Shown in pieces: positions 30,492 to 51,332 of a stretch of DNA of 64,000 nucleotides (its first letter is position 1; each line of letters starts with the position of its first letter). This DNA comes from Kofleriaceae bacterium. Its GTDB lineage: Bacteria; Myxococcota_A; Polyangia; Haliangiales; Haliangiaceae. A program made the position numbers and the translations under genes. The DNA lies in NCBI GenBank assembly GCA_018057825.1, contig JAGPCY010000005.1, positions 62,001-126,000 of the forward strand, written 5' to 3'. The notes under the pieces were generated by a model. The model searched no databases, was not told the DNA's origin, and saw nothing but the letters and a program-made list of their open reading frames with translations.

Positions 30492-31709
30492 ATGAGCAAC
30501 TACGGTTGGGTCCCGCGGCCGGATGACGAGTCGGACGACTACCTCGAGCGGCTGGCGCTCCTCGTCGCACGACGACCACGCATGGAGATGATCGAGATCT
30601 CCAACACCCTCCAGGGGTTCATCGCAGCCGCTCATGCTGCGGCAGCGCCGCCCCCGCCCATCGATGACGAGCTGGTCGTCGGTGGCCACGCGAGCCGTCG
30701 CGGTGACTGGATGGTGGACCCGTACCCTTACTCCACGCTGGGGCCGTGGACCGACTATGTCACTCTCGAGATCTCGTTGTCGGACCCTAACTACAGTCTC
30801 AGGATTCCGGACGACCTCGTTGGGGACTCGCCCATCGCACCCGATAGTCCCGCGCCAACGCCCCGCGCGTTTCACGCGAAGGGCTGCAATATCGGGCGGG
30901 CCGCACCGTGGCTGGCCAAGTTGCGCGAGGCGCTCGGCGGTCATGTGCGTGTGACTGCTCCTAGGCACTACCACGGCGTCTCGACCAATGGTACCCCGGG
31001 CGTGACTTCTATCGAGGCCATTGAATGGATGGGGTACCAGTTTGTCGTGTTTCAGAAGACGCCCGTGGCGAGCGTGAACGCGCTCGCGACCGCCTTCTTC
31101 TCGCAAGGCCATACGCGCCCCGACGGCGTGCGGATTCCTCTGAGTGCTTTCCAGGGGTGGCTCACGCTCGTTGCTGGACGAAGACTGAAGCACCCGTCCA
31201 TAACGGAGCGAAAGAGGGTGCGTTTGCCGCTGGGGCGGGATGTCGGCGGACACCGCTACGCGGAGGGGGTTGTTGGACTCTATGTTCGAACGCCGGCGTC
31301 CTCGGTTGTTTTTCAGACGTTCAGGTTTTCGGATCCTGACAGTATTCCAGCTTCCGATCAGGACCGTGTTGCAGCCTTGTCAGCCTGGTTCTTGTCGGAG
31401 TCGTCTTATCGAGATGACTATTCGTACCCGATGTACAAGCAGCACGGCTATCCGACGCTGGCGGACATGATTCGTGGGCTCGAATGGCGTTTCAACGTCG
31501 TCGTGAGGCCGGACTCTGTGACGATGGACTGCATTGGCGGGCGCTACGAGTATGAGCTGCTCGTCCCGATCGCTGCCCCGGGCCGTGGCGGGACGCTCGC
31601 GCCGACCAAGGCTCCTCTGATCTACAACCACATCCCCGAGGCTGGTCCTCCGGTCAAGCCTCCGGCATTCGACGAGGACTCCCCCTTCTACTACGGGACC
31701 GCGCCATGA
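30492..31709 (+). CDS. uncharacterised 405-residue protein, first gene of the island
   Basis: I do not recognise a family. The protein has no signal peptide or membrane segment. It is a mixed alpha/beta protein, Trp/Tyr-rich in its first third (WMVDPYPYSTLGPWTDYV) and ends in a Pro-rich tail (GPPVKPPAFDEDSP). A Shine-Dalgarno-like AAGGA precedes the ATG. The stop overlaps the start of the DUF6603-like gene by ATGA, so the two were translated together. The GC content is visibly lower than in the flanking genes to the left. No counterpart is seen in the second, intact copy of the operon. Confidence 0.7.
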   Translation: MSNYGWVPRPDDESDDYLERLALLVARRPRMEMIEISNTLQGFIAAAHAAAAPPPPIDDELVVGGHASRRGDWMVDPYPYSTLGPWTDYVTLEISLSDPNYSLRIPDDLVGDSPIAPDSPAPTPRAFHAKGCNIGRAAPWLAKLREALGGHVRVTAPRHYHGVSTNGTPGVTSIEAIEWMGYQFVVFQKTPVASVNALATAFFSQGHTRPDGVRIPLSAFQGWLTLVAGRRLKHPSITERKRVRLPLGRDVGGHRYAEGVVGLYVRTPASSVVFQTFRFSDPDSIPASDQDRVAALSAWFLSESSYRDDYSYPMYKQHGYPTLADMIRGLEWRFNVVVRPDSVTMDCIGGRYEYELLVPIAAPGRGGTLAPTKAPLIYNHIPEAGPPVKPPAFDEDSPFYYGTAP

Positions 31710-34700
31710 CAGGGACCCTGCGCGGTTTCGCTGAAGCCCTCGGCGTGGCGCTCCTACCTCTCGTCGAGGCGACCGAGGATGCCGAACTCGGCGTCGATTT
31801 CTTGCTTCGTCTGGGCTGGGAGACCTCCGCGGCGCCGGCTTCGTTCATGGCCATGAACGGCGTGCTCTCACAGGCGTTTGAGAACGCGGTGGGTGGCGAA
31901 GACGGGCTGGAAGTGGATCTTGGCGTGTTGATCCCCTCGGTCCTGGCTGCGTGGGGCGCGATCGATGCCTTGGCGTCCGCCCCTGATCTGTCGGCGGAGC
32001 AGCGCGCCGAGTTGCCGCGGCAGATCATCGACGCTCTCCTCGAGGAGTTGCTTCAGAGCCACTTTCCTGTCTGGCATGCCGCCCTGGACGCCCTGGGCAT
32101 CGTGAATGTGAACGTGGTGGCAGGCGTCGACGGGCGCCGGCCCTACGAGCGACGGACGCTCGATCGTGGCAGGCTCCTCGACTACATCGACGAGCCGCTG
32201 GAGAGCCTCAAAGAGACCTATCGCTGGGGCGAGGCGTCGTTCGACGGCGCGCGCGTGACGCGCGCGGTGACGGCGCTGGCTCGTGCGTGCGGCGCTCAGA
32301 TTGACCGATACGTCGCGCCGTCGGCTCTGACCGACGCGCTTGGTGCCCGAGCGTCCGGCCCGCGCATCGTACTTGTTGACCGGCGAGGTAGTCCGCTCGT
32401 CGTCGGTCTGGCGTTCCTCCAGGTCCCGGCGACGCCGACGGCGCTCCCGGGCGTTGCGATCATCCCGACGGCGACCGCTCCCGTTGAACATGCGATCGGT
32501 CTGTTCGATGGCCGGTTGGTGCTCGACGGTGACCTCGCCGCCGGTGTCGGTGTGGCCCTTCGTGCAGGCCAACCGCCAACGGCGGTCGCCGGGGCGGCCT
32601 TTCGGATCGAGTATGAGCGCCGCCCACCGAATGCGACGACACTTCTCGGTGAGGAGGAGGGCACGCGCGTCGAGCTGCGCGGGACCACGGCGACGCTGGA
32701 GGTCGCTGGCAGCGACGGCGGGCTGATGGTGACGGGCACGCTCCTCGCGCATGACTTTGCGCTCGTGCTGGATGGCGGTGACGGCGACGGGTTCATGGGC
32801 GCCTTGCTCCCTGGCCCGGCGTCGCGTATCGACGTCCCACTGTCGATGTCGTGGTCGACTCATGGTGGGCTGCGCTTGGGCGGAAGCCCGATACGTTCCC
32901 GTAGCGCGGCGACTTGGAGCGGTGGAAGTGACCGAAGCCTCCGTCGCGTTGCGCAAGTTCCCGCCGAGCAGCGGCGGGCCGTCGCTGTCTTTGACGGCCG
33001 CGATGACATGCCGAGGTTCCCTCGGCCCGGTGTCGTTTTCGCTAGCAGGCGCAGGGCTCGAGATGCGTCTAGCCTTCGGGACCGGCAACCTCGGACCCCT
33101 CGATGTCGGCGTGGGGTTCAAGCCGCCGACCGGCCTGTCGCTCGGCCTCGACGCCGGCCCGGTTCAGGGCGGCGGCTACCTTCGGCACGAGGCCGGGCGC
33201 TACGCGGGCGCGCTGGCGCTGGACGTGGTGGGCGTCGCGGTGGGGGCGTACGGGTTGCTCGACGCACGCGGGCCGGGCTACTCGCTGGCGGCGGTGATCG
33301 CGGCTGGGTTTCGGCCGGTGCCGCTGCCGCTTGGGTTCACGCTGGAGGGGGTGGGCGGGCTGATCGGGATCCATCGACGGGTGGACACGGAGGCGCTGCG
33401 AGGAGCGGTGCGGACGGCGGCGGGGATGGCGGAGCTGTTCTTCCCGGCGGATCCGATGGCGCAAGCGGAGCGGTTGACGACGGAGCTGGGGAGGTACTTC
33501 CCTGCGGCGGAGGGGCGGCACGTGTTCGGGCCTGCGGTGAAGTTCGGGTGGGGAAACCCGACGGTGGTTCGGGGGACGGTGGCGGTGCTGCTGGAGCTGC
33601 CGGCGCCGGCGCGGGTGGTGGTGCTGGGGACGATGACGGCGAAGCTGCCGACGGAGGAGCAGGCGATCGTCGACCTGACGATGGACGTGGTGGGGGAGGT
33701 GGACGTGGGGCAGAAGCGCGCGGCGGTGGACGCGTCGCTGCGGAGCTCGACGATCGCGGGGTTCCCGATCACGGGGGACCTGGCGGCGCGGCTGTGCTGG
33801 GGAAACCCGCGGAGCTTCGCGCTGGCGATCGGAGGGTTCCACTCGCAGTTCCGGCCGCCGGCGGAGTTCCCGACGCTGCGGCGGGTGCGGATCGAGCTGG
33901 GGTCGGGGGACGACCCGCGGCTGGACGCGGAGGGGTTCCTGGCGCTGACGTCGAACACGCTGCAGATGGGGGCACGGATCGACCTGTACGCGTCGGCGGG
34001 GCCGCTGAACATCACGGGGGGGCTGGGGTTCGAAACGCTGGTGCAGTTCTCGCCGTTCGGGCTGGCGGTGGACGTGTGGGCTGGGGTGAAGCTGCGGCGC
34101 GGCACGACGACGCTGGCGGGGGTGAGCTTCGAGGGCCACCTGCAGGGACCGAAGCCGTGGCGGATCGACGGCAAGGCGTGCCTGTCTTTGTGGTTCGTGG
34201 AGCTGTGCGTGCCGATCCATGTGACGTTCGGCAGCGGGGCGCCGGTCGCGGTGCCCGACCGGGCGATCTGGCCGGCGCTGCGGGCGGCGGTGGAGGCGCC
34301 GGCGGCGTGGGCGGCGGAGGTGCCGGGTGGCCTGACGGCGGCGATCGTGGCTGGGCCGGAGGAGGGCGCCGGGGTGGCGGGGCCGGCGCGCCGGGTCGAC
34401 CCGTGCGCGACGCTGTCGATGACGCAGCAAGTGGTGCCGCTGGCGCGGAGGATCACGGCGTACGCGCAGGGGCGGCCGACGGGGATCGATCGGTTCGAGG
34501 TGACGGAGGTGCGGGTGGGGGGACAGGCGGTGCCGGCCGCGGCGGTGACGCCGGTCAAGGACTGGTTCGCGCCGGCGCAGTTCGAGGCGATGAGTGAGGC
34601 GGACAAGCTGTCGCGGCCGGGGTTCGAGGAGATGATGGCGGGCGTGGCGGTGGGTGCGGCGACGGTGCGCGCGGGGACGCCGCTCACGCGGGTGCTCGAC

Positions 34701-35045
34701 TACGACACGGTGGTGATCGCGGGGGGACAGCGCCAGACCGCGGAGCGGTACCGACCGACGCGCGCGCTGCAGCTCGCGGGGACGGCGCTGTCGGCGACGG
34801 CGCAGGCGCCGCGCGGTCGCGGAGGCTCGGAGGCGTATGCGCCGCCGCCGGGGGCGGCGCCCGTGGTGACGCTGACCGAGGCGACGTATGTGATCGCGAC
34901 GACGGATGCGTTGACGGCGCGGTGGGATCTGACGGAGGCGGCGAGTCGGAGCGAGGCCGAGCTCGCGCTGCGCGCGCACCTGGCGGCCCACCCTGGCGAC
35001 GCGACGAGACTGCAGGTGGTCCCGAGCTACGAGGTGGCAGCATGA
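31706..35045 (+). pseudogene. DUF6603-like gene, frameshifted copy A
   Basis: The first 390 or so codons (to about 32885) are in one frame and the rest in the next; dropping one base between about 32870 and 32900 restores a product of about 1112 residues. The N-terminal half is a distant relative of copy B. From 33274 the DNA is practically identical to copy B and encodes the DUF6603-like core (PVPLPLGFTLEGVGGLIG, GRHVFGPAVKFGWG, ALAIGGFHSQFRPP). Without the correction the frame continues to 34597 as a meaningless Gly/Arg-rich sequence. It is therefore a decayed copy, or carries a one-base sequencing error. Confidence 0.78.
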
Positions 35046-35134
35046 GTGACGTGAACGCAGCCTTTCGCTTCTATCCCTGGGTTCGCCGCGCCGCCGCCGC
35101 GCAGCTCGCGACGACGGATGGTGCGGCCGGCGGG
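33274..35134 (+). repeat. 1.86-kb direct repeat, copy 1
   Basis: Matches 40733-42593 at a constant offset of 7,459 bases with no gap. I found only two differences, both in the last 50 bases (in the codons after FRFYPWVRR). It covers the shared DUF6603 core through the gene's end and the first 30 or so codons of the next gene, so its borders do not coincide with gene borders. Confidence 0.92.
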
Positions 35135-35197
35135 ATCGGGGGCGGCCGGACGGAAAGACACGAAGAACACCAACACCTCCTTGATCTGTACGGCTAG
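35042..35197 (+). pseudogene. 5' stub of the 948-residue protein gene
   Basis: Begins with the same codons as the intact gene at 42501 (MSDVNAAFRFYPWVRR...) and the same ATGA overlap with the DUF6603 gene before it. The match ends at about 35134; an unrelated tail follows, with a stop at 35197, giving 51 codons. It marks the right-hand end of the duplicated segment and is unlikely to be functional. Confidence 0.8.
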
Positions 35198-35277
35198 CCG
35201 TTGTAGCTTACGACCGTGGCCTCAGTGGCCCGCCGGTCGGGTGCCAGTAGGTCCAAGGCGGCCCCAGGAGAGTGTCG

Positions 35278-35884
35278 TTGAGCAAGAACAAGTCGTCGTC
35301 GGTGGTGCTGGGAGCAGGGCTCTTGCTGACCGCTGCCTGCGGGCCAAAGGCGCCCCCGGAGGACCCCGAGCCCCGGGTCGCTTGTGACCCGATGCCTCCC
35401 GAGGCCTACGAGTACGTGCGGACGGCACCCCGGATCACGCCGGAGGCCTTCGCGAAGCTCGACATGGACGCCGGCATCATCGTCGAAGTGATCAGCCAGC
35501 GGGTGTTCGGCACAGAAGGAAAGCCCATGATAGACGACCGCTTCCTGCCCCACGGCTGCGTCCCGCGGCGCTTGACCCTTACGGTTGTGATGCGCGGCAC
35601 ACTAAGGGAATCGCAGGCGCAGCTGTCGGCCGTGGGCTTCGAGGTGGGAGGGAAGATCGAAGCGTTGGATGGTTCTGAGGCGTTCCTTGGAGGGGTCGTG
35701 TCGCCGTCGCGACTTAGCGCTGCAGCCTGCAGTCTTGCGGATATCGATTTCTCGACCGATGGTTCCAGAGCTGCACAAGAGCGTAGAATATGCAGGGGTG
35801 ACGGTCCTGCGCCCGGTGCCGACGCCCCCCCGTGGATCGACCGGGATGGACGCGGCGAAGGGGTCTGCAAGATGCCGTACCTAG
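35278..35884 (+). pseudogene. small secreted lipoprotein gene with probable frameshift
   Basis: Starts at TTG 35278 (AGGAG seven bases upstream; a GTG at 35272 is too close to it). Lipoprotein signal with lipobox LTAAC, then a region (QLSAVGFEVGG, LGGVVSPSRL) resembling protease propeptide or inhibitor folds. Near 35712-35718 the sense moves to the next frame, which continues ALQPAVLRISISRPMVPELHKSV to a stop at 35884, a natural continuation for such a fold. Without the shift, the frame runs on into the next lipoprotein gene and would fuse two signal peptides. The shift is inferred from sequence sense only. Confidence 0.5.
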
Positions 35885-35943
35885 CAGGCGCGGTGACACC
35901 TATACTGCCACCAGACCGACCTGCGGGGGGACGCTTGACAGTC

Positions 35944-36609
35944 ATGCACTTGGCGACGACCTCGCGTGGAATTTTGGTTCGCTCCTCGATCTTCCTGACC
36001 GCGTGGCTCGCGTGTTCGAGTGGAACCAGGAAGACCGTACATGCAGACCTAGAACTGGCCAAGCGATACGAACGCGGCGACGGGGTGCCCCGTGACTTTC
36101 GTCTAGCGGCACGTCTATTCGAGAAGGCCTGCGATCAGGGGCGCGGCGACGCATCGGCGTGTCGCCGGCTCGCGGTCGCCATGGCCCGCGGTCGCGGTCT
36201 GCCGAAGCAAAGGCGGGCGCTGGCGCTGATGCGTCACGCGTGCGAACGCGGCGACTGGCTTGCTTGTGGTCCGTATGACTCATTCGACGTGGCCAAGGCC
36301 GAGGCGGCTTGTGGTGGGCAGGAGCCGGAAGCGTGCGTCCCCCTCGCCTCAATGCTGGCGTGGAGCCAGAGCGGCACGGTCGAGGAGGAGATGGTGGAGT
36401 TGCTTGCGCGCGCGTGCCAGCGTTCGGTCCTTGAGGCCTGCCTGCGGCTCGTCGAGACGCACGGCAATGAGGCGGCTACCGAGGTGCCCTTCGCAATCGA
36501 GCGCGTCCGTGCTGCGTGCCGGCAGGGCGACTCCGACGCCTGCGCGGCGGCTGGCACCCCGATTCCGGCGCGCGAGCTGTGCGCGGCCGGCGATTTCGAG
36601 GCGTGTTGA
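35944..36609 (+). CDS. Sel1-like repeat lipoprotein
   Basis: 221 residues. The ATG at 35944 opens a lipoprotein signal (lipobox AWLAC) although the frame is open from upstream. The mature part has about five Sel1-like/TPR-like helical pairs with paired cysteines (ACDQGRGDASACRRL, ACERGDWLACG, AACRQGDSDACAA), as in Hcp-type cysteine-rich repeat proteins, where each pair forms a disulfide. It is probably a periplasmic or surface scaffold. It ends one base before the phosphatase ATG. Confidence 0.68.
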   Translation: MHLATTSRGILVRSSIFLTAWLACSSGTRKTVHADLELAKRYERGDGVPRDFRLAARLFEKACDQGRGDASACRRLAVAMARGRGLPKQRRALALMRHACERGDWLACGPYDSFDVAKAEAACGGQEPEACVPLASMLAWSQSGTVEEEMVELLARACQRSVLEACLRLVETHGNEAATEVPFAIERVRAACRQGDSDACAAAGTPIPARELCAAGDFEAC

Positions 36610-36610
36610 C

Positions 36611-39103
36611 ATGCCGTGGGAGAGCCTTCGCACACGCATCGACTCGATGCCGCTTGTGCTTGCCGGCCCGATACTCCGTAAGGTGACGCCCAATTCGGTC
36701 ACAGTGTGGCTCGCTCTACGGCAACGTGCGGCTGTTACGCTCGAGATCCGCACTAGTCACGCCCTCGCGGACGTAGAACTCTTGACCGCGACTGCGCCGA
36801 CGACGCAGATCGGTCCGCGCCTCCACCTTCTTGCGATTACTGCTCGAACAGCAGTCCCGCTCGCGACCGGTGTGACGTACTTCTACAATTTGTCGTTTGC
36901 GACCGACACAGAGTCGATGTCGCTCGAAGTTGCGTCCGGGCTCGATGTCGCGAGCGACCTCTCTTACCCGCCGTACTTGCTTCCGACCTTCTCGCTGTGC
37001 CCAGACAATCTCGAAGATCTGCGCCTTTTTCACGGCTCATGTCGGAAGCCCCATGCCTCCGGCCCAGATTCGTTCGCGGTATTAGACAGCCTCATTCGCC
37101 AGTCGGTGACGACCCCCAACGGACGTCCACATCAGTTGATCCTGTCCGGCGATCAGATCTACGCGGACGAGGTTGCTGATCTATTGCTCATGATGTTGAC
37201 CGATGCAGGCGCTGTGCTGGTTGGCGTCGAAGGTCTGCCGCGGGTCGAGGGAGGCGAAACTGACGTACAGGTGCTTTGGCCGGGCTCGCGCCACGCGGTG
37301 ATCCGCGAGGCCGGCTACACCACTAGCGACACCCGCAGTCACCTGATGTCGTTCGGCGAGTACATGGCAATGTACCTGTTTGTTTGGTCGGCTACACTCT
37401 GGCCCGACGGCGAAGACCTGCCAGACTTTGACGACCTGCTAGCGGCAATGAACAACGGGGCCTCGCCGGCAGAAAAGGCGGCGGTTGGGAAGCTGCGCAA
37501 GGCGGCAACAGCTCAGCGCGCGCGCATCGTTGAGTTCAAGGATACCCTGCCTGCTGTACGGCGGGCGCTCGCCAACGTCCCAACGTACATGATCTTTGAC
37601 GATCACGACATCACGGATGACTGGAACCTCTACAGGTCCTTCTGTGACAAGGTATACGGCAATCCTCTTGGTGTTCGACTCATACAGAACGGATTGATTT
37701 CCTATGCGCTGTGCCAGCATTGGGGCAACGCGCCAGAGCAGTTTGCGTCAGCGGTCCCATTTCATCCGGCCGGCAAGCGTTTGCTTGATCTTCTTGGCTC
37801 GGCAACATCGTACTACGATATCGCTGATCGTCATGAATTGCGTCAGTATATGGGAGTGCACACGCCGGCAGAGATGGCGTCTCGTACGCCGTATCATCTG
37901 TTCCATGACATCGGTCATCGCTCGAACAGTGGCGACGGGCTGGTCGACACATCATCTTTGATTTTTCACTATACGATCGAGGGGTTGCGACATCAGTGCC
38001 TGGTCACCGACAGCCGGACCTGGCGGTCGTTTCCCCGGACCGCAGGCTGGGCCCCACCAGACCTCATCCTGTCGACAGAACTCGTGACTCAGATCGAACA
38101 CGCACCGCCACGTCTCGGACGCCAAACTGTACTTGTCATGACAACCAATCCCGTGGTGGGGCCAGTAATCCGCCAAGGGGCGCGCGACTTGCCTAACCTG
38201 CCGGGCGGCAACAAGCTTCGTAACGAGGACTTTAGCGACTCATGGGAGGTTGAACGCGTGGATTTCGCTCGCCTCCTAGCGTCCCTTTCGCGACGCTTCG
38301 CTCCCAATATGAGTGACGAACGAGTCGGCGCGGTCGTCGTACTCAGCGGTGACGTACATGCTAGTTCGGCTGCGCGAGTTCAATACTGGGCCGATGCTCA
38401 GACAGGTGACTCGCCATCCAATCCGACTCGTGCGCGTCTAGTGCTCGCCCAACTAGTGGGCAGTCCCATGCGCAACGGAAACGCTATGACCCGTGGGCAG
38501 CACACGCGCGGATGGGACTACATCCCGCCCGGTCAAATTGCGGCCATGGTGAGTCAACCTGTGAACCGCACGGAGAAGTTCGTGGGTTGGAATCCGTCGG
38601 CGATGGTTCACGGGCAGCGGGTTGGTGAGGCGTTGGTGGAGCGAGTGGGCCTTGGTCCTGAGGATATACCGCCAGTTACGATGCCTGAGTTGTTCGATAG
38701 CGATCGTCCGTTTGTCACGCTGCGTAGCCAGGTCTACACGCATCTGGTCTATATCGAAATGACCAATATCGAGATCGCGCCCCATTTTCGTATGCTGCTC
38801 AGATACCTGCGCGCTGATGCCGGCGGTCGCTACGGCCATTCCTCGCCGCCGTTTCCATCTGACAGTGAGTTGGCCGCGTCGGCGAGGCGGAATCACCTCT
38901 ATGGTGCGTATGCAGGCATCCGTGGCAATGGCGCTGAGGTTCTCGGACGTTCCAATATTGGTGAAGTGAAGATGACGCCCGCGGTGGTCTCTTATAGAGT
39001 TCATTGGCAAGAATCAATGACTGCGACCGAGATTGACTGGATTCGCTTCGATATCTCACTCGACGTCAGCGACGCGCCCTTTCAGTATCCAGGGCAGCCA
39101 TGA
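36611..39103 (+). CDS. PhoD-like metallophosphatase, no signal peptide
   Basis: 830 residues. An N-terminal fibronectin-like strand region (GPILRKVTPNSVTVWLALRQ) is followed by the metallophosphatase core. The metal-binding blocks are visible: GSCRKPH, GDQIYADEV, FDDHDITDDWN and LSGDVHAS. PhoD enzymes hydrolyse phosphodiesters or monoesters with Ca/Fe centres, but classical PhoD is exported by Tat; here the N-terminus (MPWESLRTRIDSMPL) shows no twin-arginine signal, so it is probably cytoplasmic. The stop overlaps the DUF6603-like gene by ATGA. Its GC content is clearly lower than in flanking housekeeping genes. Confidence 0.85.
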   Translation: MPWESLRTRIDSMPLVLAGPILRKVTPNSVTVWLALRQRAAVTLEIRTSHALADVELLTATAPTTQIGPRLHLLAITARTAVPLATGVTYFYNLSFATDTESMSLEVASGLDVASDLSYPPYLLPTFSLCPDNLEDLRLFHGSCRKPHASGPDSFAVLDSLIRQSVTTPNGRPHQLILSGDQIYADEVADLLLMMLTDAGAVLVGVEGLPRVEGGETDVQVLWPGSRHAVIREAGYTTSDTRSHLMSFGEYMAMYLFVWSATLWPDGEDLPDFDDLLAAMNNGASPAEKAAVGKLRKAATAQRARIVEFKDTLPAVRRALANVPTYMIFDDHDITDDWNLYRSFCDKVYGNPLGVRLIQNGLISYALCQHWGNAPEQFASAVPFHPAGKRLLDLLGSATSYYDIADRHELRQYMGVHTPAEMASRTPYHLFHDIGHRSNSGDGLVDTSSLIFHYTIEGLRHQCLVTDSRTWRSFPRTAGWAPPDLILSTELVTQIEHAPPRLGRQTVLVMTTNPVVGPVIRQGARDLPNLPGGNKLRNEDFSDSWEVERVDFARLLASLSRRFAPNMSDERVGAVVVLSGDVHASSAARVQYWADAQTGDSPSNPTRARLVLAQLVGSPMRNGNAMTRGQHTRGWDYIPPGQIAAMVSQPVNRTEKFVGWNPSAMVHGQRVGEALVERVGLGPEDIPPVTMPELFDSDRPFVTLRSQVYTHLVYIEMTNIEIAPHFRMLLRYLRADAGGRYGHSSPPFPSDSELAASARRNHLYGAYAGIRGNGAEVLGRSNIGEVKMTPAVVSYRVHWQESMTATEIDWIRFDISLDVSDAPFQYPGQP

Positions 39104-42504: not shown

Positions 42505-42593
42505 GTGACGTGAACGCAGCCTTTCGCTTCTATCCCTGGGTTCGCCGCGGCGCCGCCGCGCAGCTCGCGACGCCGGATGGTGCGGCCGGCGGG
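40733..42593 (+). repeat. 1.86-kb direct repeat, copy 2
   Basis: Partner of 33274-35134. Left of the repeat the two DUF6603-like genes are clearly different in sequence; right of it copy 2 continues into the full-length downstream gene while copy 1 breaks off. Confidence 0.92.
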
Positions 42594-45347
42594 ACGCGAG
42601 CGGACGTACCGGTGGTAGTGCGGTTCAATGGCGATCCGGATCTCGAGGCGGCATCGAGCGTCGCCCTGGTCGGTCCGGGCGACGTGACCGGCTTCGACGC
42701 GCGGTCGATCAGTCGGCGCTCCCCACCCGAGCGAACCCTCGACGCCGAGCCGAACTACTTCCCGGCGATCGAGTTCGATCAGGCGGACCTGCCTTGGCGC
42801 TACACGCCGCGCACCGCCGACGCGACGGGACGCCTACGACCCTGGCTTTGCCTGGCGGCGTTCACCGAGGCGGAACTCGGGCCGTTCGAGGTGACCACGT
42901 CGACGCGCGCGCTCGAGGCCGTGACGCTCAAGGCCGGGGCCGCGATGCCCCCGGCCGCTCAGCTCTGGGCCTGGGCCCACGTCCAGGTCAGCGGTGACGA
43001 TGACCTTCTGCTCGAGGAACTCCTGGTCCGCCATCCCGGGCGGTGCCTGGCGCGGCTCCTGTGTCCACGCCGACTGGCCCCGAAGACGACGTACCAGATG
43101 CTCCTGATCCCGACCTTCGAGGTCGGTCGTCGGGCCGGGCTGCGCGAGCCCCTCGACGAGGCCACTGCCGCGCTGACGACGGCCTGGAACGGCGCGGCCC
43201 TCACCGCCGACCTGCGCGTGCCGATCTATCACCGCTGGACCTTCACCACGGGCTTCGAGGGTGACTTCGAGAGCCTGGTCCGAAGGCTGGCGCCGGCGCC
43301 CCTGCCGCCGACCGCAGGAGCCCGGGGCCTCGACGTCGCGAACCCGGGCGGCGGGCTGCCAGCCGCGGCGGCGACGCCGCTGGCACTGGGGGGAGCGCTG
43401 CGGCCACCCACGAGCCCAGCCCCGGCGCCGCTGGCGCCGGCCTTCGTCGACGGCCTGGTGGCGCTCTTGAATCTGCCGGCGACCGTGCGGGAGACCGGCG
43501 GGGCGCCGATCGTGGCGCCACCGATGTACGGGGCCTGGCACGCGAAGCGCGAGACGATTCCTTCGGCTGCCGCGCCCCCGGCGAGCGGCCCGGGCTGGTT
43601 CCGCGAGCTGAACCTCGATCCGCGGGCGCGGGTGGCGGCCTCGGTCGGTACCGAGGTCGTGCAGGAGCAGCAAGAGGGCTTGATGGCCTCGGCGTGGGCG
43701 CAGGTTGCCGGCATCCGTGAGGCCAACGCCCAACTCCGCGCGGCCCAGGTCGCGCGTGCGGTCGGGGAGCGGTTGCATCGACGCCACGTCGCGGCAGCCG
43801 AGGACGCCCGCGTGCTTGAGTTGACCGCGCCGGCCCTCGGTCAGATCCGAGCGACGAGCGCGACCGCGCGCGCGCGGGTCGAGCGCAGCCCGGCGCGGCT
43901 GGCGCTGTCGTCCACGGGGATGCGGCGGATCGCACGGTCGCTGGGGCCCGTGGGGCGTCGCCAGGGGCGGCCGGTCAGCGCGTCTCCTCACGTGCTCACC
44001 CGGGCCAACGCCTCGACGCTGGCGGCCCTGACCGCGACGCCGGTGCCGTTGCCGCGATCGGTGCCGACGCAGGGGTGGCTCGAAGAGGTCCTCAAGCGAC
44101 CCTTCCCGCAGCCGGCGGAGGTCGAACAGGCCCCGCCGGCGGCGAAGGCCTACGCGTGGGATCCGATCGACGGCAAGGTCCCCGAGCGGTGGGATGAGGG
44201 AGACGGGACGGACAGTCCATCGATGGCCGCCTTTCGCGCCGCGGCGCGCGCACTGCTCGGCCGCGATCGCACCGCCGACAAGGGCGAGACCCTGACCCGG
44301 CTCGATCTGCCTGCGCTGCGCGCGACGGTGCAGGCGGCGGTCGACCCGCGCGTGACCATCGTCCAGGCGATGACCGCGCGCCTGGTACGCGCCCCTGGCT
44401 TCACGTGGTCACCGACCGATCCGCTGGCCCCGGTGATGGCGCATCCGGTGTTCCCGCAGCCAATGTTCCAGCCGCTGGCCGAGCGGTCGCCCGACTGGAT
44501 CTTGCCGGGGCTCTTCGACCTTCCAGCGGATCGGGTCACGCTGGCCAAGACCAATCCGGCGTTCATCGAGGCCTACATGGTCGGGCTCAACCACGAGCTA
44601 GCCCGGGAGCTGCTGTGGCGCGAGTATCCGTCCGATCAGCGCGGCAGCTACTTCCGGCAGTTCTGGGATCCAGCCGGGGTCGAGGTGTCGCCGGTGCCTG
44701 AGACCGCGAAGGACGTGCGGCCGCTCCACGGGTGGGACGCGTCGTCTCCGCTGGGGAGCCACAGCCCCCGGCCGCTGGCGCCGGGCCACGAACACCTGGT
44801 GCTGGTCATTCGCGGTGAGGTGCTCAGGCGCTATCCCGGGACGTTGGTCTACGCGCAGCGCGCGACCCGGGCCGGCGCGCTGGTGGGCCTGGGCTCCGAG
44901 CAGCGGCGCCCGGTGTTCTCGGGGCGGTTGCCGCCGGACGTGGCGTTGTTCGGCTTCACGTTGACCGACGCGGAGGTGCGCGGCGACGGCACCGCGGCCA
45001 ACCCAGGCTGGTGCTTCGTGTTCGAGGAGCAGCCGGGCGATCCGCGCTTCGGCCTCGACGTGGGGACCGCCCCTGCGCCACCCGCAGCGACCTGGGACGA
45101 CCTGTCGTGGGGCCACCTGGCGGCGACGCCGGAGGCCCAGGCGGCGATCGCGTACATCGACCTGGCGTCGGCGTTGCCGCTGCGGCCCACGGCCGAGCCG
45201 GCGGGGGGCGTTGGCTGGCAGGCGAGCGCGGGTCCGGGACAACCGATCGCCCGCGGCGCCGACCACGCCGTCATCACGTTGCAGCGCGCGGTCCGCGTCG
45301 CGATCCACGGCGCGGACCTATTGCCGACGGCGCCGACGCCGTCCTGA
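42501..45347 (+). CDS. uncharacterised 948-residue island protein
   Basis: I do not recognise a named family. There is no signal peptide or membrane helix. N-terminal beta-rich region (VPVVVRFNGDPDLE), an Ala/Pro-rich linker at about residues 270-330, a helical middle (EVVQEQQEGLMASAWAQVAGIREANAQLR, about 390-440), and a conserved-looking end (LPPDVALFGFTLTDAE, GWCFVFEEQPGDPRFGLD). It starts inside the DUF6603 stop (ATGA) and is followed after 22 bases by the 1411-residue gene. The helical stretch could be a coiled coil. It is likely a structural component of a complex formed with its neighbours; this is inference from coupling. Confidence 0.78.
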   Translation: MSDVNAAFRFYPWVRRGAAAQLATPDGAAGGTRADVPVVVRFNGDPDLEAASSVALVGPGDVTGFDARSISRRSPPERTLDAEPNYFPAIEFDQADLPWRYTPRTADATGRLRPWLCLAAFTEAELGPFEVTTSTRALEAVTLKAGAAMPPAAQLWAWAHVQVSGDDDLLLEELLVRHPGRCLARLLCPRRLAPKTTYQMLLIPTFEVGRRAGLREPLDEATAALTTAWNGAALTADLRVPIYHRWTFTTGFEGDFESLVRRLAPAPLPPTAGARGLDVANPGGGLPAAAATPLALGGALRPPTSPAPAPLAPAFVDGLVALLNLPATVRETGGAPIVAPPMYGAWHAKRETIPSAAAPPASGPGWFRELNLDPRARVAASVGTEVVQEQQEGLMASAWAQVAGIREANAQLRAAQVARAVGERLHRRHVAAAEDARVLELTAPALGQIRATSATARARVERSPARLALSSTGMRRIARSLGPVGRRQGRPVSASPHVLTRANASTLAALTATPVPLPRSVPTQGWLEEVLKRPFPQPAEVEQAPPAAKAYAWDPIDGKVPERWDEGDGTDSPSMAAFRAAARALLGRDRTADKGETLTRLDLPALRATVQAAVDPRVTIVQAMTARLVRAPGFTWSPTDPLAPVMAHPVFPQPMFQPLAERSPDWILPGLFDLPADRVTLAKTNPAFIEAYMVGLNHELARELLWREYPSDQRGSYFRQFWDPAGVEVSPVPETAKDVRPLHGWDASSPLGSHSPRPLAPGHEHLVLVIRGEVLRRYPGTLVYAQRATRAGALVGLGSEQRRPVFSGRLPPDVALFGFTLTDAEVRGDGTAANPGWCFVFEEQPGDPRFGLDVGTAPAPPAATWDDLSWGHLAATPEAQAAIAYIDLASALPLRPTAEPAGGVGWQASAGPGQPIARGADHAVITLQRAVRVAIHGADLLPTAPTPS

Positions 45348-45369
45348 CCTCTAACTCGGCGAGCAAGAC

Positions 45370-48300
45370 ATGGGCGACCTGGCGTTCGAGCTGACGCAGC
45401 TCCACACCGACTATCCGATCGCGCTGCTACCGGTGCGGCTGGAGACGCGCTTCGTCGCGTCGCCGCCGGCGCTGAAGATCCGGATCTACCCCGACGAGAT
45501 CGTGGCCGACGGCCATCGCCGCGCGTTGACCACCGGCGAGTGGGTTGACGCGACCCAGTACTGGCGCGACGGCTGGGATCCGGCCGACGAGTATCAGGCG
45601 TGGCAGACGTTGACCTCGCGGTACCCGGCCGAGCGCGCGGCCTGGCTGGTGGCGCAGGCGACGCCGACCAACGTCAAGGCGCGCCCCGGCGGCGCGCCCA
45701 GCTTTGCGCCGCCGGCGCTGAAGGACGACCTGCTGCCCGAGGTGACGGCCAAGGCGCTGCCGCGGTCGTGGCTGGTGATCGCCTATCGCGGTGGCCTCGA
45801 GGTGGGCCGGGTGACCAGCGGAGAGATCGTGGAGCCGGTCCACCTGTCGTTCGCGCCGACGGTCGCGGCCGGCGATCCGTCGTTGGTCGCGCGCGACGGC
45901 GTGACCATCGAGCCCGAGCTTCTGTGGACCATCGACTACGACCAGGCCGTGGCGATCGGGATGGCGGTGACCTTGCCGCTCACCAGCGCCGACCTGGCGT
46001 TGGGCTTCGATCGGGTCGTGGTGGTGGGCGTGCGGACCCAGGTCGACGCGGCGGCCGGGGCCGCGCTCGTGACCGAGCTGCTCGACGCCCACCGCTACAC
46101 CCGCGGCGTGGCGCTGGTGCCACAGGGGACGCCGACCAACAACACCACGGCCGTGCCGTCGGGGTTCCCGTTGCCGGGGGACACCCTCGAACGGTTCACG
46201 CTGGAGCGTGGTGGCGCCGAGGTGGTCGGTGCGACCGACGGCGGCTCGATCGCGACCGCGTTGGGGGTGCCCGCCACGACCCTCGCGCGCGTCGACGGCC
46301 ACCGCCGCCGTGAACAGGCGAGCGCGGCGGCGATGAACCTGGCGTTGTGGCCGTGCACGCTCGGCTACTTCCTCGAGCAGATGATGGCGCCTCACGTCTC
46401 GGTCGAGCAGCTCACTGCCGCGCGGGCGCACTTCCGCGACTTCGTGCGGGGGCGCGGACCGTTGCCGGTCCTGCGGGTGGGACGGGTGCCCTATGGGCTC
46501 CTGCCGGTGACCTCGAGCGCGCGCTGGCAGGCGGCGCGGACCGAGGATCCGATCGAAGGTGGACTGGCGACGCTCCTCAAGACCTGGCGTGCCGAGTTCC
46601 TGGCGCGGGCCAGCGCGGTGCCGCGGGTCGGCGCCACGGCTGACGCCGACGAAGATCTGATCGGTGTCCTGGTCCGCGACGCCCACAGCCGCGAGGTCCG
46701 GACCCGCGAGGTCTACGGCCCGGCGTTCGTCTCGAACCTGTTCGTCCTCCTGGGCCTCGACGGTAGCGGGCCGGCGGCGGCGCGGTTGACGCTGGCGGCC
46801 CAGGCGCTGGCGCAGGCCGGGTTGGCCGGATTGGCACCTCGAGTCGCGCAGCTCACGTTGGGCGACGAGGCGCGGCGCATCGGTCGACCATGGGTCGCGG
46901 AAGGTGCGCTGTCCGAGACGGCGACGCTGGCGCCCAACTACATCAATCAGGTCCGGACCTCGAGCCTGCGCGACCTGCGGGGCGCGGGCGCGGCCGCGAA
47001 TCCGTCTTTCGGCCAGCCGTTGCTGTTCCACCTGCTGCGGCAGGCGACGCTGGTCGAGAGCAAGCGCGCGGGGGTCGCCGCCGCCGCGACCGTTGGCGCG
47101 GCCGATGCGGTCGATGGGGTCGAGCGCGAGCTGCACCGCATCGGGCCCGGCACCGAGCCGCGCCGGACCGCGTGGGAGTGGTTCGAGGCGTCGGTCCCGG
47201 GTGTGACCGCGGGGGAACCGCTGGACGCCTGGCTCGGGGATCCGACCTCGACCGACGAGGCTCGTCGCTCGCTGCGGGAGCACCGGGCGGCGCTCGCGAC
47301 CCTGGCGACCGTGCCCACCGCCGAGCTCTCGCGGCTGTTCATCGAGACCCTCGACACGTGCTCGCATCGGGTCGACGCGTGGTTGACCTCCCTGGCGACC
47401 CGCCGGCTCGCGACCATGCGCCAGAGCCATCCCACCGGGGTCTACATCGGTGCCTACGGCTGGGTCGAGGACCTGCGGCCGCGGCCGAGCCCGCGGCCCG
47501 GGACCGCCGGTGGCTTCATCCACGCGCCGTCGGCGGCCCAGGCGACGACGGCGGCGGTGTTGCGCAACGCGCACCTGAGCCGCATCGGGGCGGCTCGCGA
47601 TCTGGTGGCGGTCGACCTGTCGTCGCGTCGGGTGCGCGCCGTGTTGGAGCTGCTTGACGCCGTCCGGCAGGGCCTGCCGCTGGCCGCGGTCCTCGGCTTT
47701 CGCGTCGAGCGCGGGCTCCACGAGGCGCAGCTCGATCGCTACATCGCGCCGCTCCGCCAGGCGTATCCGCTGGGCAATGACCCTGCGGTGCCGGTCGTCG
47801 CCGGCGAGCGCGTCGCCGCGCGCAACGTCGTCGATGGCCTGGCGCTCCGCGCCGCCTTGGCCGGGCAGACGACGGCCTCGACGATCCCGTGGTCGGCCGC
47901 GGCCCCGTTCGTCGCCGCCGGCGACCGCGCGGCGATGGCGCCGGTCCTGGCTGCCCTCGAACACGACGTCGACGGGGTGGCGGATCTGCTCCTCGCCGAG
48001 ACGGTGCATCAGGCGGTGCAGGGCAAGACCGAGCGGGCGGCGGGGACGCTGGCCGCGCTGGCCGGCGACGGCGCGATACCAGAACCGGAGGTGGTGAGCA
48101 CACCGCGCCGTGGCACGAGCGTCACGCACCGGGCCGCGATCGTGGTGGGCCCGGCCGAGGGGCACCCAGCGCTCGGCTCGTGGACCGAGACCCCGCGGAC
48201 CCTGGCCGAGCCGCGCCTGGCTCTTTGGACGGCGCTTCGGCTCGGTGCGGCGGGCACGGCGGAGGCCCGGGTGAGCTTCCCAGCGCCGACCGTTGGTGAC

Positions 48301-49605
48301 CCGGGCGCGCGGGGGACGGCGGTCGTCACCTTGGCCCACCTCGGGCTCGGTCCGCTGGACGTGCTGGCCATGGCGCGCCGCACGGAGGTCGATGGCCGGG
48401 GCGAGCTGGAGCTGCGGCTGCGCAGCCACGTGGCGACGGCCCTCGGCCAGGCCCAGGACGTCGCCATCGATCATGGGCGGGTCGGCGACACATTGACGTT
48501 CCTGGACGTGATCGAGCTGGCGAACTCGATCGATCACGTGATCGAGCAAGGCCGGCCGATGGCGCCCGCCGACGTGGCGGTCGCCGGGGCCCAGGTCGCG
48601 GACGTCGACGAAGGGGAGTTGACCCTTCGCGCGCAGAAGCTGATCGGCGCCCTGGCTGCGGCGCGGGCGACGCTCAGCGAGGCGGTGGCGGCAGCGGCGA
48701 TCGACGACGTCGCGACCAGCGCCGCGTTGCGCGCGGCCTTGTGGAGGGTCGCGGCCTTCGGGGTGGCTGAGGCCGTGCCCCGCCAAGTCGATGATCACCG
48801 TGCTGGCGACCGCGCGTCACTGCGCGAGGCGGGCGCCGCAGCGCTCGTCGTCATCGAGCGACGGCTGGCCGCAGCGGCGAGCCCCGGGCGCGGCGACTCG
48901 CGCCTGCAGGATCTGTTTGGCGGGACGCTGATGGTGCTTCCGACCTTCGCGCCGGTCAACCGGGCCGAGCTCGACGAGGCCATCGCCCGGGCGCCGGCTC
49001 TCGTGCCGGAGCCCGTCGGGGTCCGGCGCTGGTTCGTCGGCGCCGCCGCGGTGCGGTCGCGGCTCGCGGGGTGGCGGCTCGCGATGCTCGCGAGCGAGGC
49101 GGTCGCGCCGTCGAAGACGACGCTGGTCCCGGCACAGTTGCCACTTCAGATCGGCGCGCCGTGGGTCGGTGGGGCCTTCGCGCCGGGGGCGTCCCGACCG
49201 CGCGCCGGCACGGTCTCGCTGGTCCTGGACCTACCGCTCGCGCTCGGTGCGAACGACGGCTGGGCGGGTCTCCTGATCGACGAATGGTCGGAGGTGATTC
49301 CTGACGACACCCAGGACACCAGCCTCGCCGTGCACCACGACGCGCCTGGCGCGGAGGCCGCGCAGTGCGTGCTCCTCGCGGTGCCGCCGCGACCCAAAGG
49401 GGCCTGGGACCTGCCGAGCCTCGAGGCCATCGTCAACGAGGCCTTCGATCTGGCGAAGATCCGCGCGGTGGATGGCGACCTGCTTGGGCCGCTCGGGCTC
49501 CTGGCACCGACCACGTTTCTCGCGGCCAACCTGAGCGACGACACGATCGCCGTCGACCTGGCGGCCATGACCATCGGCGAGGCGACGGTCCTCGCCGCGG
49601 AGTAG
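45370..49605 (+). CDS. uncharacterised giant island protein (1411 residues)
   Basis: No assigned function. The N-terminus has a distinctive block (PIALLPVRLETRFV, then LKIRIYPDEIVADGHRRALTTGEW) that also occurs, as I recall, in unannotated proteins of actinobacteria and cyanobacteria. The body is mixed alpha/beta, Ala-rich, with no membrane helices, signal peptide or catalytic motif I can name; two predicted helical stretches lie around residues 1075-1150. It is two base pairs from the next gene (stop 49603-49605, ATG 49608). Its size and lack of enzyme motifs suggest a scaffold or shell component. Confidence 0.78.
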   Translation: MGDLAFELTQLHTDYPIALLPVRLETRFVASPPALKIRIYPDEIVADGHRRALTTGEWVDATQYWRDGWDPADEYQAWQTLTSRYPAERAAWLVAQATPTNVKARPGGAPSFAPPALKDDLLPEVTAKALPRSWLVIAYRGGLEVGRVTSGEIVEPVHLSFAPTVAAGDPSLVARDGVTIEPELLWTIDYDQAVAIGMAVTLPLTSADLALGFDRVVVVGVRTQVDAAAGAALVTELLDAHRYTRGVALVPQGTPTNNTTAVPSGFPLPGDTLERFTLERGGAEVVGATDGGSIATALGVPATTLARVDGHRRREQASAAAMNLALWPCTLGYFLEQMMAPHVSVEQLTAARAHFRDFVRGRGPLPVLRVGRVPYGLLPVTSSARWQAARTEDPIEGGLATLLKTWRAEFLARASAVPRVGATADADEDLIGVLVRDAHSREVRTREVYGPAFVSNLFVLLGLDGSGPAAARLTLAAQALAQAGLAGLAPRVAQLTLGDEARRIGRPWVAEGALSETATLAPNYINQVRTSSLRDLRGAGAAANPSFGQPLLFHLLRQATLVESKRAGVAAAATVGAADAVDGVERELHRIGPGTEPRRTAWEWFEASVPGVTAGEPLDAWLGDPTSTDEARRSLREHRAALATLATVPTAELSRLFIETLDTCSHRVDAWLTSLATRRLATMRQSHPTGVYIGAYGWVEDLRPRPSPRPGTAGGFIHAPSAAQATTAAVLRNAHLSRIGAARDLVAVDLSSRRVRAVLELLDAVRQGLPLAAVLGFRVERGLHEAQLDRYIAPLRQAYPLGNDPAVPVVAGERVAARNVVDGLALRAALAGQTTASTIPWSAAAPFVAAGDRAAMAPVLAALEHDVDGVADLLLAETVHQAVQGKTERAAGTLAALAGDGAIPEPEVVSTPRRGTSVTHRAAIVVGPAEGHPALGSWTETPRTLAEPRLALWTALRLGAAGTAEARVSFPAPTVGDPGARGTAVVTLAHLGLGPLDVLAMARRTEVDGRGELELRLRSHVATALGQAQDVAIDHGRVGDTLTFLDVIELANSIDHVIEQGRPMAPADVAVAGAQVADVDEGELTLRAQKLIGALAAARATLSEAVAAAAIDDVATSAALRAALWRVAAFGVAEAVPRQVDDHRAGDRASLREAGAAALVVIERRLAAAASPGRGDSRLQDLFGGTLMVLPTFAPVNRAELDEAIARAPALVPEPVGVRRWFVGAAAVRSRLAGWRLAMLASEAVAPSKTTLVPAQLPLQIGAPWVGGAFAPGASRPRAGTVSLVLDLPLALGANDGWAGLLIDEWSEVIPDDTQDTSLAVHHDAPGAEAAQCVLLAVPPRPKGAWDLPSLEAIVNEAFDLAKIRAVDGDLLGPLGLLAPTTFLAANLSDDTIAVDLAAMTIGEATVLAAE

Positions 49606-49607
49606 CC

Positions 49608-51332
49608 ATGCCCTCGATCACCTACTGGAATCGCCTCGAGCCGCGGCCACGCGCGACCGACCTGGCGGAGGCGCTGGCGGCGCGGATCGCCGATCCGGCC
49701 TGGCTCCTGGCGCGCCAATGGCAACTCGGCGAGTTTCAAGGCGAGGACTCCGGATCCCCGGCCTATGTGAAGGTCGAAGCGACGATCGGCCGCGTGCGCG
49801 GCTGGGGTGCGGCGGGGGTGAGCGCGCAGGCGCTGCCGGCTGCGGCCCCGGTGGAGGCCCGGGTGACCGCGGAGCCTGGCGGCGGAGACCTGGCCCATGC
49901 CGTGGAGCTCGGCCAGACCTTCGAGCTATGCTTGGGCCAGGCGGCCGCGGCCGACCTGCGTGGCTACTTCGTGGCGGCGTATCCGATCGCCGCTGGCAGC
50001 GACGATGAGCCGCGCGCGGCGCGCCTGCGCGCATTGTGGCAGGGCCGGGCCATCGATGGCCTGGCTCTGTGGCGCGCGACGACCGAGGCAACGCCACCGG
50101 CGCCGGGGGGCGCGGCGCCGCAGCCCAAGCCTGCGCCCGGCGTGCCGTGGTCGGTGCCATCGACCCGGCGCGGCGCCGCGGCCAGCGCCGTGCAGGCCTT
50201 CGTGGCCTGGGTGCAGTCGACCGGCGTGCCGGGCGTCGGGGCGCCGGCCGGGTGGAGTCCGGGCGAGCTGACGACGCGCGCGCAGCTCTACGTCGATGCG
50301 CCCGCGGGTGGCACGCTCAACTTGACCGCGACGCCGGATCGGCGGGGGGACCTGGATTGGTACGGCTACGACGGGGCCAGCGCGGCGGCTCCCGGCGGCA
50401 CGCCGACCGGTGCGATCGAGACCGTCGCGCGCTCGGTGATCCCCGGCCCGGTGCGGTTCCGCGGCATGCCCAACGAGCGCTTCTGGGACTTCGAGGACGC
50501 GCGCTATCCGATCGATGCGCTGCGGCCGGATCGCCGCAGCCTGGCGTCGATGATCTTGCTCGACTTCATGCTCGTCCACGGCAACGACTGGTACCTGGTA
50601 CCCTTCGAACAACCGGTGGGCAGTGCGTGCGCGATGACGGTCGCGGTGGTGGACGTCTTCGGGACGACGACGACGGTGCCGCGGGCCGAGCCGAGCGGTC
50701 CTTCCGGGCCGGGGCGCTTCGCGATGTTCGCGATCGACCGCGGCGACGTGGGCCTGGCTGGCGTCCACCTGGTGACGGCGTCAGCGGCGACGTCGGTGCT
50801 CGAGAGCGAGCCGATCGAAGACGTGCGCTTCTTGCGCGATGAGCAGGCCAACCTGGTGTGGGCCGTCGAGCACGCGACGGTCGGGGCGCTCGGGGCCGGT
50901 CGCAGGGCCGCGGATCGTGCGCCGGCGGCGGTGACCGCGGAGGCACCGTTGCCCGAGGGCGCGGCGCTGCGTTACCGGCTGGCGTCGGCGGTGCCGGCGA
51001 GTTGGTATCCGTTCCAGCCGGTGAAGCTCAGCGGCGCGAACCCGGATGAGGTCGCGCTCGAGCTGGCGGGGTTGTTGACGCTCGACGGGACGACCCCCGA
51101 GGTGCGGACGCCGCGCGGGCGTGTGCTTGCGGGGGCGGCGCCGGGAGTGGCACTGCGCCTGCGCGAGGAGCAGGTCCCCCGCGAGGGCACGTGGGTGCGT
51201 CGGATCGTGCGGCGTGCGCGCGGCGCCGATGGCGCAGTCCACGTCTGGGTCGCGCGGACGCGTGGGATCGGGACGGGGGAGGGCGATGCGGGGTTGCGCT
51301 ACGATCGTGGGGTCGAAGGGCCGGCGGAGTGA
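49608..51332 (+). CDS. uncharacterised 574-residue island protein
   Basis: No named family. It opens with ITYWNRLEPRPRATDLAEALAARIADPAWLLARQWQLGEFQGED, a strongly patterned segment that I recall from other unannotated bacterial proteins. The rest is beta-rich with repeated Trp-Tyr motifs (GDLDWYGYDG, ERFWDFEDARYPID, FMLVHGNDWYLVPFEQPVGS). No signal peptide. It is the last gene of the five-gene operon, followed by 137 bases without a gene before sppA. The high conservation-like patterning of the first 45 residues suggests a contact surface. Confidence 0.78.
   Translation: MPSITYWNRLEPRPRATDLAEALAARIADPAWLLARQWQLGEFQGEDSGSPAYVKVEATIGRVRGWGAAGVSAQALPAAAPVEARVTAEPGGGDLAHAVELGQTFELCLGQAAAADLRGYFVAAYPIAAGSDDEPRAARLRALWQGRAIDGLALWRATTEATPPAPGGAAPQPKPAPGVPWSVPSTRRGAAASAVQAFVAWVQSTGVPGVGAPAGWSPGELTTRAQLYVDAPAGGTLNLTATPDRRGDLDWYGYDGASAAAPGGTPTGAIETVARSVIPGPVRFRGMPNERFWDFEDARYPIDALRPDRRSLASMILLDFMLVHGNDWYLVPFEQPVGSACAMTVAVVDVFGTTTTVPRAEPSGPSGPGRFAMFAIDRGDVGLAGVHLVTASAATSVLESEPIEDVRFLRDEQANLVWAVEHATVGALGAGRRAADRAPAAVTAEAPLPEGAALRYRLASAVPASWYPFQPVKLSGANPDEVALELAGLLTLDGTTPEVRTPRGRVLAGAAPGVALRLREEQVPREGTWVRRIVRRARGADGAVHVWVARTRGIGTGEGDAGLRYDRGVEGPAE

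Follow-up and report, generated by a model that had tools for sequence, protein, structure and literature searches.

What do a predicted phosphatase, a DUF6603 protein and three large proteins without a family model do together in one operon? This question is raised by five plus-strand genes at positions 36611 to 51332 of the window, the 64,000-nucleotide stretch of Kofleriaceae DNA analysed here, which lies on contig C20 (62001-126000) of an 8.9 Mb draft genome in 84 contigs and has a G+C content of 72%. Herein, four of these genes are described as the chassis, and the first gene as the occupant of an exchangeable slot, of what seems to be a machine, not described before, with a "plug-in" weapon or tool. 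The explanation favoured, with moderate confidence, is a modular effector complex, in which a four-protein chassis is combined with a slot protein docked via an N-terminal adaptor of the DUF6603 protein.

The slot gene of the window (36611-39103; 830 residues) encodes a protein that matches Pfam PF09423 at 31.2 bits against a gathering cut-off of 27. The motifs GDQIYAD, DDHD and GDVH are all present, and the metal-site motifs (GDQIYAD, DDH and GD.H) are invariant across 12 slot homologues. On sequence grounds, this protein is PhoD-like and a predicted phosphatase. The chassis follows on the same strand. The DUF6603 protein (39100-42504; 1134 residues) matches Pfam PF20248 over residues 425-987 at 362 bits, with a gathering cut-off of 27. 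It is followed by p948 (42501-45347; 948 residues), by p1411 (45370-49605; 1411 residues) with the conserved blocks ALLPVRxETRF, GAYGW.E.LRP and GGFIHAPS, and by p574 (49608-51332; 574 residues) with the conserved block DP.WLL.RQWQ.GEF.GED. The successive junctions are ATGA, ATGA, 22 nt and 2 nt, and all five reading frames are backed by third-position G+C (GC3). The initial annotation had given the genes, sizes, overlaps and gaps with exact coordinates, and had recognised the PhoD-like core alone among the five proteins; the Pfam match agrees with this. p948, p1411 and p574 returned nothing above cut-off in Pfam, NCBIfam, PADLOC and PHROGs, and chance or coiled-coil matches only in a PDB sequence search. 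A simple hydropathy check found neither a signal peptide nor a membrane helix in any of the five operon proteins, as had been noted before.

The conservation of the chassis was then determined. The p1411 alignment was scanned against 84,980 species genomes, which gave 80 loci in Myxococcota, Pseudomonadota, Bacteroidota, Actinomycetota, Verrucomicrobiota, Planctomycetota, Cyanobacteriota, Chloroflexota, Acidobacteria, Gemmatimonadota and Aminicenantes. DUF6603, p948 and p574 were located around the p1411 loci by iterated hidden Markov models (HMMs), with p948 relatives in 86 loci. All four genes are present in 70 of 82 loci, and the other 12 are cut by contig ends. Chance is ruled out for the four-gene set because the same genes recur together in 70 loci. 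Gene order and strand are constant apart from two loci (L065 and L122), and the median intergenic gaps (-4, 13 and 3) are coupling-sized. Nine loci of the streptomycete type have p1411 and p574 fused into a single open reading frame (ORF). Trees built for the four chassis proteins are concordant (distance correlation r 0.90-0.94), where gene calls in draft contigs are heuristic and the FastTree trees contain long branches. The expected co-occurrence of the large proteins with DUF6603 across phyla was confirmed by a set test: within a phylum sample of 284 genomes, p574 was found in 5 and DUF6603 in 10, and 5/5 p574 genomes fell within the DUF6603 set (p 1.7e-8). DUF6603, p948, p1411 and p574 are thus well supported as an invariant operon.

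The four-gene operon is also borne by haloarchaeal plasmids. In the haloarchaeal versions (L126 and L129), p1411 measures 2619-3124 residues and p574 is extended C-terminally by lamin-tail domains; the Halobellus p948 is split over several genes, and a surface domain is annotated on one haloarchaeal p1411. Divergent class II operons were found in the genome of the window (L144, contig C81, 134001-154000) and in several other genomes (L133-L139). Their DUF6603 proteins are longer, about 1400-3200 residues, and most of the genes are followed by one for a relative of the p948 N-terminal part (hhalign E 3e-15). A possible split-off C-terminal part of p948 (E 0.002) and a large protein unrecognisable as p1411 accompany them, and neither p1411 nor p574 is recognisable in these divergent loci. 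At one further locus (L141) two operons stand in tandem, with p1411-p574 of one followed by PhoD-DUF6603-p948 of the next. A phage origin of the operon was considered and rejected: no relative was found among viral contigs. One p574 relative is encoded by a human-faecal record titled "Bacteriophage sp." (MT835531.1), which is neither verified nor annotated and is possibly bacterial DNA.

Beyond the slot, no conserved partner gene was found after all flanking ORFs were clustered; the recurrent clusters were all slot classes or local genes specific to a genus. The slot gene lies directly upstream of DUF6603, usually at a spacing of -11 to +26 nt, and its class, assigned via Pfam and clustering, varies by locus. 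PhoD is the occupant in the window and at about a dozen further loci. In other loci the slot holds a subtilase (S8), a trypsin-like protease (S1), a peptidase M64, a phospholipase D (PLD), a kelch/galactose-oxidase-like protein, a tyrosinase, a WD40 protein (with hemopexin nearby in some loci) or a peptidoglycan-binding-domain protein, and class II slots hold subtilases or an endo/exonuclease-phosphatase. PhoD, taken in the initial annotation for the defining enzyme, is instead one occupant among at least nine exchangeable slot classes. At least 17 slot-class changes were counted on the chassis tree among the rows with a recognised class. The slot class differs even between two Ruegeria species, and one Actinomycetota pair has trypsin versus PhoD. 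A C-terminal domain of ~120 residues with a WHR..GP motif, for which Pfam has no name, is common to trypsin-like and subtilase slots (L074, L077, L078, L087, L093 and L105), so that different catalytic heads are swapped on a shared tail as well. The slots of an endosymbiont (L100), Halobellus and Halalkalicoccus resemble the C-terminal part of BTH_I2691 (NF041559; E 3.2e-8, 2.5e-5 and 2.7e-10; 23-39.5 bits), a family of pore-forming toxins of the type VI secretion system (T6SS) (PMC12909789). Since these scores lie far under the curated cut-off, likeness to the family is claimed, not membership.

Exchangeable effectors such as the trypsin-like protease, PLD and hydrophobic proteins would also suit an intracellular abortive-infection defence, in which a suicide effector would be set free in its own cell once phage or damage has been sensed by the chassis. 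The patchy distribution (5 of 284 phylum genomes), the absence of signal peptides and the absence of a conserved immunity gene agree with such a role. However, no PADLOC-DB model matches any component, Pfam finds no nucleotide-binding sensor domain in any chassis protein, and tyrosinase, galactose oxidase, PhoD and M64 would be unusual as suicide effectors. A defence role is therefore considered unlikely. The same occupants can be read as the cargo of an enzyme-display complex, secreted or at the surface, that would process nutrients and whose chassis would carry extracellular hydrolases and oxidases and not be a weapon. Most slots are of typically extracellular kinds (subtilase, M64, PhoD, tyrosinase, galactose-oxidase-like), and the haloarchaeal lamin-tail and surface domains point the same way. 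The pore-former-like slots, however, are not nutrient enzymes, and signal peptides are absent; enzyme display is judged improbable.

Further evidence for the modular effector complex was obtained from the DUF6603 protein. In pairs of loci with different slots, the mean identity of the first ~330 DUF6603 residues is ~0.19, whatever the C-terminal identity (0.30 to 0.70), whereas in same-slot pairs it rises to 0.41. Between the DUF6603 proteins of L071 (S1) and L074 (S8), identity is 18% over the N-terminal part and 77% over the remainder; between those of L056 and L058, both with an M64 slot, the respective values are 55% and 49%. The boundary between the adaptor and the constant part lies near residue 500. 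Among 40 representatives, the observed same-slot excess was reached in 0 of 5000 label permutations. When the whole chassis was scanned in 21 segments, co-variation with the slot was confined to the leading three eighths of DUF6603 (z 7.7-8.6; 0/2000 permutations), and the remaining 18 segments gave z from -3.5 to 2.1. As an out-of-set check, the best matches of the endosymbiont adaptor are the two adaptors from haloarchaea whose slots are of its own type. Similarly, the first eight relatives of the window DUF6603 N-terminus are all from PhoD-slot loci, and PLD-slot adaptors match PLD-slot adaptors across phyla. In the two loci with altered gene order, slot and DUF6603 are displaced as a pair away from p948-p1411-p574. 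By these sequence comparisons, DUF6603 is a chimera of a slot-specific adaptor (about residues 1-420) and a constant platform, and its N-terminus would act as the cognate effector adaptor on that platform.

A probable trace of slot exchange is carried by the window itself. The five-gene plus-strand operon of the initial annotation is real; what had been missed is the slot exchange, the chimeric nature of DUF6603, an 1817-bp repeat and a displaced pair upstream (30492-35119, plus strand). The first gene of this pair encodes A405, the older slot protein (30492-31709), which is ATGA-coupled to DUF6603 copy 1 (31706-35045). No Pfam match was found for A405. It is faintly similar to the slot class of L063, L095 and L112 (hhalign E 0.0018, prob. 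14.7%), and a 63% identical homologue occupies the same position before DUF6603 on contig C63 of the same genome. That A405-DUF6603 relative extends off the contig end, and the start of contig C28, with p948-p1411-p574 of a third operon, is probably its continuation. DUF6603 copy 1 is frameshifted between about 32860 and 33021, so that its adaptor part and its DUF6603 domain (HMM match 32904-34601) lie in different frames; the C63 relative is open through this region. Positions 33274-35090 are identical to 40733-42549, an 1817-bp direct repeat that joins the two DUF6603 copies and spans the constant C-terminal DUF6603 part and the p948 start. Behind copy 1, a truncated p948 start of 26 codons remains (35042-35119; tblastn 92% over 26 aa). 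Copy 2, the DUF6603 gene of the operon, consists of a part before the repeat (39100-40732), which covers the adaptor and runs on to residue 544, and the constant platform (40733-42504), an amphipathic beta-meander inside repeat copy 2.

The base composition changes at the same place. GC3 is 0.65 in PhoD, compared with 0.88-0.93 in the chassis. Along DUF6603 copy 2 it is 0.68-0.79 before the repeat, steps to 0.94 at the repeat and stays at 0.91-0.96 over most of it; in p948, p1411 and p574 it is 0.88-0.91. The exact repeat, the GC3 step at its start and the displaced, frameshifted older pair lead us to read the arrangement as a cassette exchange: a foreign lipoprotein-PhoD-adaptor cassette would have been inserted by recombination in the DUF6603 gene, displacing the A405 slot with its DUF6603 copy, orphaning the old slot and taking over the resident chassis. 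The repeat itself is likely a recent recombination or gene-conversion tract. The lipoprotein-like gene of the cassette (35272-36609, plus strand; Pfam Sel1 E 3e-12; lipobox-like LLTAACG) ends one base before PhoD, has a low GC3 of 0.75 and probably arrived with the new cassette; as a lead only, its product may be a slot partner or an immunity protein. An exact 1817-bp repeat within an 84-contig draft could also mean that the assembly wrongly joined two loci via a shared repeat, an error that would leave the general system unaffected. However, the p948 homology continues past the exact repeat with mismatches before it ends (49/50, then 38/50 matches), and the composition shifts at the repeat start within one open gene, and an assembly error is accordingly thought quite unlikely. 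On the 3' side of the operon, an S49 (SppA-like) protease gene lies on the same strand (51470-54028); it was unmatched near the other loci compared.

In the AlphaFold model of DUF6603 residues 345-865 (predicted local distance difference test, pLDDT, 76; predicted template modelling score, pTM, 0.45), ~27 long antiparallel strands are seen, and the strand faces alternate in mean hydropathy (+2.27 vs -0.73; 0/2000 shuffles). The nearest folds to this platform are outer-membrane barrels, ushers, LptD and ApoB100, with TM-scores of at most 0.24. Outer-membrane beta-barrels, LptD and ApoB100 share with it a long amphipathic antiparallel beta meander. Unlike outer-membrane barrels, DUF6603 has no signal peptide and is also found in cells lacking an outer membrane; a crude check gave a signal-like N-terminus in 2 of 74 DUF6603 proteins. 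Going by the model, the platform could form a pore, bind lipid as a belt or fold as a soluble sandwich. A hydrophobic helical hairpin (residues about 555-660) occurs in p948 at 22 of 68 loci (e.g. L063, L067, L074, L077, L079, L087 and L092). It has undergone at least 7 gains or losses, and is absent from the window p948 and from all 21 Actinomycetota (0/21). The most conserved block of p574 (residues 21-48) falls within the least confident part of its model, as would be expected for a partner interface.

In the proposed mechanism, one exchangeable slot protein, catalytic or membrane-active, would dock on the chassis, with the first ~400 residues of DUF6603 as its docking part. The rest of DUF6603, which is amphipathic and rich in beta strands, is the same whatever the occupant, as are p948, p1411 and p574, and the four chassis proteins may assemble into one particle. 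A slot change would be brought about when the slot gene and the adaptor domain move together by recombination inside the DUF6603 gene. The DUF6603 platform or the p948 hairpin would touch the membrane, and the complex probably acts on other cells or their membranes. The large assembly with an enzymatic component suggested in the initial annotation fits this mechanism; the storage role named there found no support, and the fixed stoichiometry is not implied by translational coupling.

The proposed complex resembles several known systems in its logic. Tc toxins, in which an exchangeable enzyme is joined to a large carrier of several proteins, are alike as an idea; no chassis protein matches Tc components in Pfam, PDB or NCBIfam. 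The polymorphic toxins of the contact-dependent inhibition (CDI) and Rhs type also have a conserved delivery part with exchangeable toxin parts and recombination in the conserved part. Effector exchange on a constant machine, a trait of polymorphic toxins, was found here as slot-class changes with adaptor co-variation. In PMC3967940, orphan Rhs modules are described as displaced copies left beside the active one, to which the displaced older pair of the window is comparable. In contrast to CDI and Rhs, the variable enzyme of the chassis system is a separate gene at the operon 5' end, and an adaptor domain is exchanged with it; Pfam and NCBIfam give no match of the chassis proteins to Rhs, CdiA or other polymorphic-toxin carrier families. 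In the T6SS, Tap3-Tke5 (BTH_I2691 family, PMC12909789) exemplifies an effector-specific adaptor that loads cargo onto a common machine, as proposed for the DUF6603 N-terminus. Unlike the T6SS with its Tap (DUF4123) adaptor, the operon is without DUF4123 or VgrG and is found in Gram-positive bacteria and archaea.

Contractile systems were compared by gene content. Extracellular contractile injection systems (eCIS) have a patchy taxonomic spread similar to that of the chassis operon; unlike them, the operon has no sheath, tube or baseplate genes. The chassis proteins match no phage-tail or injection protein, PHROGs included, and no shared tail cluster was found in the flanks. That the operon encodes cargo or an accessory of an eCIS or T6SS whose genes lie at another place in the genome is very unlikely: Phage_sheath_1 (PF04984) matches in 21 of 29 operon genomes, the BTH_I2691-like slots resemble T6SS effectors, two phage-sheath-like genes of a possible eCIS lie about 177 kb downstream of the window (L145/L146, C20 near 303275-307594), and among 56 relatives a sheath is present in 8/8 operon genomes versus 22/48 others (p 0.005), but 8 of the 29 (including Kribbella, Nocardia and Arthrobacter) have no PF04984 match, T6SS sheaths not having been searched, the association in the phylum sample has p 0.19, no tail gene common to the loci was recognised in their vicinity, and the sheath excess may reflect kinship because 17 of 22 operon-free genomes of the window's own family also have a sheath. 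A strict link to contractile injection systems was dropped after these sheath counts.

Several observations weigh against the modular effector complex. By the hydropathy check, almost every protein lacks an export signal, and within 10 kb there is no secretion gene that is conserved. No conserved immunity gene or small partner gene was found among the shared neighbours of the loci. Tyrosinase, galactose oxidase, WD40 and PhoD are non-standard toxins, and the BTH_I2691 slot matches stay below the NCBI curated cut-off of 150 bits. The permutation tests leave phylogeny unmodelled, with the 18 flat control segments as the only safeguard. The DUF6603 fold matches are loose (VIA Z about 14, root-mean-square deviation 10-12 Å, pTM 0.45), and the p574 fold is unmatched in PDB (Foldseek best E 0.18; VIA best Z 3.5), which does not prove a new fold. 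A bolder reading is put forward tentatively, as doubtful: a previously unknown, non-contractile cargo-delivery machine common to bacteria and archaea, in which DUF6603 would be a large amphipathic beta pore or belt. Each complex would bring a single enzyme or toxin into a target membrane or through it, the enzyme being chosen by the exchangeable adaptor.

The literature covered, with subscription papers and preprints outside its scope, gave no paper with "DUF6603" and nothing relevant on the combined slot enzymes. The operon is a large unexplained system of four giant proteins, three of them without a family model, in more than ten phyla and in haloarchaea. The slot gives it a logic in which a single chassis takes many catalytic heads by means of a matching adaptor domain, and from this logic it can be predicted which DUF6603 N-terminus binds which enzyme. 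DUF6603 gains a testable function, and natural adaptor-cargo pairs are available for its study. The system would stand next to polymorphic toxins, T6SS, eCIS and Tc complexes as a modular machine of a new kind.

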